A stretch of 35,240 nt of DNA from positions 1 through 35,240 of the forward strand of contig JAJRWB010000059.1 of NCBI GenBank assembly GCA_024276995.1, in the 5' to 3' direction. Position 1 is the stretch's first letter; each line of letters starts with the position of its first letter. A program made the position numbers and the translations under genes. Origin of the DNA: Candidatus Eiseniibacteriota bacterium. GTDB lineage: Bacteria; Orphanbacterota; Orphanbacteria; Orphanbacterales; Orphanbacteraceae. Shown here in pieces: positions 4,448-28,801 of this stretch. The notes under the pieces were generated by a model. It was not told where the DNA came from. It did no database searches and saw only the letters and a program-made list of their open reading frames with translations.

Positions 4448-5455
<1,008 letters not shown>

Positions 5456-27273: not shown

Positions 27274-28716
27274 TCATCTCTTCTTCACACTGTGATCGAC
27301 GAGTCCGATCTTCTCGTCGAAATCGAATGTCGGATCGTGCCGACTGTTGTGGCACGCCACGCACCGGTCGACTACGGGAGCGAGGGTGTAGCTCCTGTCC
27401 GGCTTGGCACGGGCGTTTTCCATCGACTCTCCATTCACATACGCGATGTGATCGGCGCCCGAGCCGTGGCAGACTTCGCATCCCACACTCACCATGTTCG
27501 GCGTCTTCTCGTACGAGTGGAACCCGTTGAAGTGACCGTAGCCGGTCACGTGACAAGGTACGCACTCGGGATTGTGGTCCTGGTCCCTCGTCCGCAGCGT
27601 CTCGATCGCCCGGGAATGGGACGTGAGACGCCACTGCTTGAATTCCGCTTCGTGGCACTCCCCGCACGCGCTGCTGCCGACGAAGCGCAGATCCTCCAGG
27701 TCGCTCGTTTCCGGGACATACGCCTTCCCCGCTTCGTTCAGATCGACGCGGTACCGCTTGACCAGTTCCACCATGTCGGCGTCATCTTGCACTGTTTCAT
27801 CGAGGGGTTGCGCCCTGCCGTCCCGCTTCGTCACGATTCCTCTCTCGTCGAGCGCCAGCGTAACGATGCCGAGATACTTCCCCTGATCGCCGGGCATCAC
27901 CATGGGAGTCTCGCCGACGAGATACGGCTTCGGTTTCACATTCGCTCCGTGCCCCACCACCATCAGGTCGATCCCGGCGACACCCCGGGCGAGATCCTTC
28001 GCCTGGATCCATCCGGTGTGGGCGAGACAGATGATCAGGTCGCACTTGTCGTTCAACTCCTCGACGATCTCGCGGCCGGCGATGATCGGATCGCGAATGA
28101 CGAGACGGTCCTCCCCTTCCATCGCCGGAAGAATCGAGTTGTCGTCGAGCAGTTCGAGCACACCGAAAACGCCGACCCGGACCCCACCCCACTCGAACCC
28201 GAGGAACTTCTTACCCCCGATCCTCTTGATAATGTAGGGAGGGAGAAAACGCTCGCCGGTTGTGCCGTCGAAAACATTCGCCGAAATCACGGGCACTCCG
28301 TACGTGCGAACCATCTCGAGTAGGAAAGCCTGCCCCTGGTCGAGGTCCGATTCGCCGAGGTTGACGCAGTCGTACCCCATCTTGGCGTAGGCTTCGAACA
28401 GGTATTTCGCCTTGATCGGCGCCAGATTGTTCACGCCGCTGATCAGATCGCCGCAATCCACCTTCAACACCGACGCGGAATCGACTTCCGAAACCTCTTT
28501 AATGTAGGTGGCCCGCCGGGCCACTCCGCCCTTCTGGCTCACTTTTCAGCCGCACGGTTCGATACTTCCCCCCACGTCGCCCGAGTAGAACACCCTCAGC
28601 TTCCGCGCGCTCAGATCGCTCGATTCGAAACATCCCGTGAGGGCGAAGAGCCAGAACGGGAGAAGAACGATCCCGCCCGCCGCCACCCTCCGCAGCCGTG
28701 CCGATACGTTCATCAT
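27274..28716 (-). CDS. UshA-like lipoprotein with tetraheme cytochrome c domain; in-frame TGA, candidate selenoprotein
   Basis: Read through one TGA (28546-28548, codon 57), this is a 480-residue protein. The ATG at 28716 has AGAAGGAG 6 nt upstream and a promoter; no Shine-Dalgarno precedes the GTG at 28542 after the TGA. The N-terminus is a lipoprotein signal ending ALTGC (Cys29). Then SGDVGGSIEPCG-[TGA]-KVSQKGGVARRATYIKEV matches a phosphoesterase/5'-nucleotidase-like family whose motif is PCGC...GG(L/V)ARRAT, with TGA in place of the second Cys. The phosphoesterase-like domain (about 40-320) keeps CGDLIS and His233 in LAHTG, but GNHE is GESD and GGHTH is VGHGA. Four heme motifs follow: CGECH 351, CVPCH 385, CEVCH 413, CVACH 452, a cytochrome c554-like arrangement. 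It should be a periplasm-facing lipoprotein in electron transfer. Alternatives: nonsense mutation or base-call error. Confidence 0.75.
28508..28524 (-). other. Candidate bacterial SECIS stem-loop after the in-frame TGA
   Basis: On the minus strand GTGGCCC (28518-28524) pairs perfectly with GGGCCAC (28508-28514) around the loop GGC. The stem starts 21 nt and the loop 28 nt after the TGA. Known bacterial SECIS elements have a small apical loop with G at its first or second position, placed roughly 16-37 nt after UGA; this fits. The stem is only 7 bp with no clear lower stem, and short GC hairpins are frequent in this genome. Confidence 0.45.
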
Positions 28717-28801
28717 CGATTACTCCTTCTCGCCGCCGGCGCGCCATCCGACAACCGGCGAAGCGGGAAACAGGGGAACTCCACACTTCTTTACGGGATA
28801 T

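Follow-up and report, generated by a model that had tools for sequence, protein, structure and literature searches.

Our analysis indicates that a UGA at codon 56 of a lipoprotein gene in the window (the whole 35,240-nucleotide stretch of contig JAJRWB010000059.1, from a Candidatus Eiseniibacteriota bacterium) is read as selenocysteine (Sec) and that the product belongs to the UshA-like (seleno)protein family, NCBIfam NF041198. Judging from the sequence comparisons, we put the probability of this reading at about 0.93. The UGA would be decoded by the bacterium's own SelA, SelB, SelC and SelD, directed by a hairpin downstream of the codon, and the product would be an envelope lipoprotein. On the coding side we computed a frame that runs through the TGA, an exchange of Sec and Cys at one position among homologues, a co-varying hairpin and a set of Sec machinery genes.

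Inspection of the sequence placed the in-frame TGA at 28548-28546 (minus strand) inside a single gene, 28716-27274, for which two adjacent ATG codons, at 28716 and 28713, are the start candidates. The features of this gene are as follows, with the evidence given in brackets.

28723 to 28728, minus strand: Shine-Dalgarno-like AAGGAG (6 nt upstream of the first ATG)
27274 to 28716, minus strand: complete predicted selenoprotein gene from ATG to a terminal TGA, with one internal TGA, about 480 codons (frame, translation, family profile)
28630 to 28641, minus strand: lipobox LTGC, with Cys28 as the predicted lipidated residue (sequence; alignment in the phylum)
28546 to 28557, minus strand: putative PCGU motif (Pro-Cys-Gly-Sec), residues 53-56, with TGA at the second Cys of PCGC (translation, alignments)
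28546 to 28548, minus strand: internal TGA, predicted Sec, codon 56 as numbered from the ATG at 28713 (translation, phylum and distant alignments)
28508 to 28524, minus strand: SECIS candidate with a 7-bp stem, GUGGCCC/GGGCCAC, and the loop GGC at 28517-28515 (folds, covariation, published model)
27724 to 28602, minus strand: UshA/5'-nucleotidase-like metallophosphatase domain, residues about 38-330, with degenerate metal and catalytic residues (profile, model, Foldseek, columns)
27334 to 27669, minus strand: tetraheme cytochrome c554-like domain, residues about 349-460, with four CXXCH motifs (sequence, Cytochrome_C554, 1bvb)

The first-pass annotation had described a TGA that replaces the second Cys of a PCGC motif, in a frame entered through a promoter, a Shine-Dalgarno sequence and a lipoprotein signal. 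The motif is as it was described: the signal LFALTGC (ending at Cys28) is followed by FYSGDVGGSIEPCG-TGA-KVSQKGGVARRATYI, and SIEPCG-TGA-K stands downstream of the lipobox. The AAGGAG at 28728-28723 and the lipoprotein signal are likewise there. The promoter fared less well: a match exists, but it is a single 9-of-12 consensus match at 28830-28802 against 0.5 in shuffles, and so is no evidence by itself. Past the internal TGA, the frame continues through the metallophosphatase-like domain and the four CXXCH motifs to the terminal TGA at 27276-27274. No Rfam family matched in the region of the gene.

The family label that the first-pass annotation gave, 'UshA-like (seleno)protein', is real. The window product scored 296.7 bits against NF041198, above the cut-off of 275, in one stretch that spans the TGA (protein residues 25-291, profile positions 9-270), and the C-terminal heme part matches profile positions 354-518. 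The protein resembles NF041198 (UshA_like_PCGU) in passing this cut-off, in the PCGU motif, in the UshA-like N-terminal domain and in the C-terminal heme part; we found no feature that sets it apart, in a source phylum that is sparsely sampled (seven genomes). The same superfamily holds NF049981, 'UshA-like (seleno)protein family 2', to which the N-terminal stretch also matches. Membership of NF049981 was rejected at 57.5 bits, far under its cut-off of 140, as was that of the SoxB thiosulfohydrolases (76.3 bits against 550). In the part of PMC13188914 that describes NF049981, its motif is CxxU, not CxU. The novelty that the first-pass annotation implied was overrated, given that lists of selenoproteins have included the family from 2008 or earlier (PMC2398784); UshA-like selenoproteins with a CxU motif appear in passages of PMC2398784 (2008), PMC9312934 and PMC13188914 (2026). 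The passages of these three papers on the UshA-like family assign it no function, and loss of the metal ligands or the catalytic His in Sec/Cys members was not found in them. The member is thus new and the family, which is widespread, is already catalogued. Each genome of the phylum also has one or two additional paralogues with a TGA, below the NF041198 cut-off: a 'b' gene in all seven (L042, L051, L032, L031, L043, L035 and L039), tetraheme where the copy is complete, and a 'c' gene in two (L053 and L052), without hemes. Scanned against NF041198, the b and c members gave 223 and 117 bits, respectively.

Within the phylum, the neighboring genes are identically ordered across the three longer stretches compared; named by eye from sequence, they are a sigma-54-type regulator and genes for ubiE-like, beta-helix-like, Hsp20-like, porin-like and small DNA-binding proteins. 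In other phyla, no recurring partner gene was seen near the homologues when unannotated ORF translations were glanced at by eye. A scan of contigs with a single protein query returned only two relatives, both from the same phylum. Viral contigs held no confirmed relative, and among the best matches from plasmids and phages there were only remote ones (24-28% identity across at most 70% of the protein).

We also weighed a reading in which Sec is inserted and the protein has remained a metal-dependent phosphoesterase, with Sec and Cys serving as metal ligands or in a structural role only. The fold favors it: the model of the N-terminal domain (block-mean pLDDT 65-97 for residues 60-320) matched 5'-nucleotidases in Foldseek with an E value of 1.2e-22 to 3ivd, and the similarity to UshA/CD73 5'-nucleotidases (COG0737) extends to the N-terminal sequence. 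In UshA and CD73, the loop after the first strand bears Asp and His metal ligands, and an Asp, an Asn-His pair and more His residues follow further along the sequence. The window protein has Asp46, Gly48, Asp89, Glu121, Ser122, His232, His255 and Ala257 in these columns, so that Asp46, Asp89, His232 and His255 still occupy ligand positions. As a UshA-type 5'-nucleotidase with di-metal ligands and a catalytic His, however, the protein was rejected, given that the first His is Gly48, the Asn is Glu121 and the catalytic His is Ser122. Almost no Sec/Cys member retains the first His ligand, the Asn or the catalytic His. The columns were picked on the basis of what is generally known of CD73 and UshA, and a single count was made. 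Of the 77 Sec/Cys rows, 1 retains the catalytic His, versus 6 of the 9 that lack the motif; the first metal-ligand His is present in 3 of 77 versus 8 of 9, a contrast drawn between related rows and a small second group (9) in an automatic alignment; it leaves the motif and the metal site nearly mutually exclusive. The remaining ligand columns vary even among close orthologues, the His255 column also holding N, S or G. Moreover, a domain search of the window protein did not find the 5'-nucleotidase C-terminal domain, and a heme domain occupies that place. Unlike UshA and CD73, then, the window protein has mostly lost the metal ligands and catalytic His and has a putative Sec motif and hemes instead, and we consider a working phosphoesterase unlikely.

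The C-terminal part matched Cytochrome_C554 (9.4e-18) and the structure of cytochrome c554 (PDB 1bvb, E 5.3e-12). It shares the tetraheme domain with that cytochrome and differs in belonging to a lipoprotein, where a UshA-like domain is fused to it. In the structure prediction, pLDDT for the heme domain was below 50. In several distant homologues the open frame spans only 320-400 aa, which cannot accommodate both parts, and the heme domain is therefore not universal among homologues. The membership in NF041198, the tetraheme domain and the loss of the nucleotidase metal ligands and catalytic His were all computed here.

That the TGA is a nonsense mutation or base error, leaving a pseudogene or a shorter protein begun at a GTG past the TGA, is a reading with some local support. 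A 422-aa ORF does begin at 28542, downstream of the TGA, and the assembly has other broken genes, namely a selA in two frames and a gapdh-like gene in the window with an internal TAG. Set against this, orthologues with 52-57% protein identity to the window protein carry TGA at the same codon in all seven genomes of the phylum, which makes a base error very unlikely and means that the TGA is neither chance nor an assembly artefact. The lipobox and PCG are conserved upstream of the TGA, with the lipobox Gly-Cys kept in 14 of 14 'a' (orthologue) and 'b' proteins of the phylum. A protein begun at 28542 would lack the signal that four c-type heme motifs require. For a wider comparison, 290 genomes, nearly all outside the phylum, were searched for distant homologues, and 69 loci were taken, from which 70 rows had a residue in the TGA column. 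As the first-pass annotation had proposed for this alignment, the column holds mainly Cys or TGA: TGA in 32 rows, Cys in 30 (15 TGC and 15 TGT), another residue in 8 (Asp in 3, Tyr in 3 and Val in 2) and TAA or TAG in none. The share of TGA is no unbiased frequency, since 29 loci were best matches and 40 were hand-picked from the ranked list with internal-stop counts visible, and one of the 30 Cys rows, L117, has the look of a canonical nucleotidase with a Cys that is probably misaligned, so that the metal-site count places it with the 'other' group. This conservation, as read from the alignments, largely refutes a nonsense change or base error, which we now regard as very improbable. Two homologues, with PVGU (L030 in G003) and PSGU (L115 in G142), keep the TGA where the partner Cys is absent, which suggests that Sec, and not the partner Cys, is the indispensable residue.

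Two adjoining paralogues, L109 and L128 (G161:C5:975-2893), have TGA and TGT, respectively, at the motif and form a natural Sec/Cys pair; they join with 100% support in a quick tree, which has weak deep branches and was used for this tandem pair only. In the window itself, the gapdh-like gene (4448-5455, minus strand) has its TAG at 5012-5014, just upstream of the catalytic NASCTTN motif, at a position normally held by Ser. This TAG is a nonsense change, strain variation or an assembly error.

A SECIS-like hairpin, as the first-pass annotation proposed to look for, is present and co-varies. The stem GUGGCCC-GGC-GGGCCAC begins 21 nt past the UGA, has its loop 28 nt past the UGA and folds at -12.2 kcal/mol. 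The bacterial SECIS model, as set out in the relevant part of PMC13188914, calls for a loop of 3-9 nt with a G within its first two positions, a stem of 4-16 bp, a spacing of 16-37 nt and a free energy of -7.5 kcal/mol or lower, and the hairpin satisfies every one of these constraints, which were read between the description of the hairpin and the model check. The hairpin was first spotted by eye in folds, and the null test, the pair count and the model check were then run on the same stem. No other 27-nt window of the gene folds more stably (rank 1 of 471). When the window gene was recoded synonymously, a hairpin of equal stability arose in 5.6% of trials, and about 5% of the gene's codon positions have some qualifying hairpin; the evidence from one gene alone is thus modest. 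Its weight comes from persistence at one place in 'a' and 'b' genes whose proteins are mutually only 26-29% identical. Pairing was kept in 105 of 105 cells over 15 sequences, an alignment that omits L042, the 'b' paralogue of this genome, in which a C-to-A change makes one mispair and the hairpin fails the SECIS model, so that pairing would fall slightly below 100% with L042 included. Two pairs were changed on both sides. The covariation score was reached by 0 of 500 shuffles, and the count of two double-changed pairs, weak by itself, in 96 of 500. One of them, a G-C to A-U change in G004, is protein-silent on both sides; the other sets the 'a' genes apart from the 'b' and 'c' groups and may have arisen only once.

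The genome encodes the machinery that the first-pass annotation had named as a check (selA, selB, selC and selD), with selA frameshifted in the assembly. The tRNA-Sec scored 71.2 bits with the anticodon TCA and was also called as tRNA-SeC by ARAGORN, and a tRNA-Sec lies above the cut-off in six of the seven phylum genomes. The selB gene scored 359 bits and selD 380 bits, the latter with an in-frame TGA of its own. The selA gene was found in two different frames (410 and 99 bits); in the search of the seven phylum genomes it was intact in four relatives (G002-G005), whereas G001 and G006 gave no selA match. We give hardly any credence to TGA as an organism-wide sense codon for Trp, Gly or Cys, which an in-frame TGA alone would fit, given that the selenoprotein gene itself terminates at TGA (and some orthologues at TAA or TAG), that the genome has SelB and a tRNA-Sec whose anticodon is TCA and that the TGA sits on a Cys column. 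Two of the machinery genes are worth recording in their own right. The in-frame TGA of selD (L020, G000:C49:5158-6081) lies in an N-terminal AGU motif, a feature known from other SelD selenoproteins. The split selA (L009 and L010, G000:C12:38616-39982) is either an assembly error or a real defect.

For the window protein itself, we lean toward a redox mechanism, which its sequence features make somewhat probable. The Cys-x-Sec pair would be the working redox center, in the loop after strand 1 where nucleotidases have their first metal ligands; Sec would attack, Cys54 would act as the resolving partner, and the fused c554-type tetraheme domain would donate or accept electrons. The protein would then work as an exported oxidoreductase rather than as a nucleotidase. 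As substrate we would guess a small oxidant or a sulfur compound; SoxY, as a hint of a sulfur substrate, gave no match in the seven phylum genomes, nor did it in the control genomes, so that the search carries no weight either way.

In summary, ordinary gene calling would cut this gene after the TGA and so miss the lipobox and redox motif along with the signal peptide. For the family as a whole, we hold at roughly even odds that a binuclear-metal phosphoesterase fold has been turned into a selenium redox enzyme, with a CxU/CxC loop at the place of the first ligands, a decayed metal site and, in some members, wiring to a tetraheme domain. The anti-correlation between CxU/CxC and the metal site offers a concrete and testable idea, namely that members with the motif carry out redox chemistry and not hydrolysis of phosphate esters. 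If this is true, the protein would be a selenoprotein in direct electron exchange with c-type hemes.
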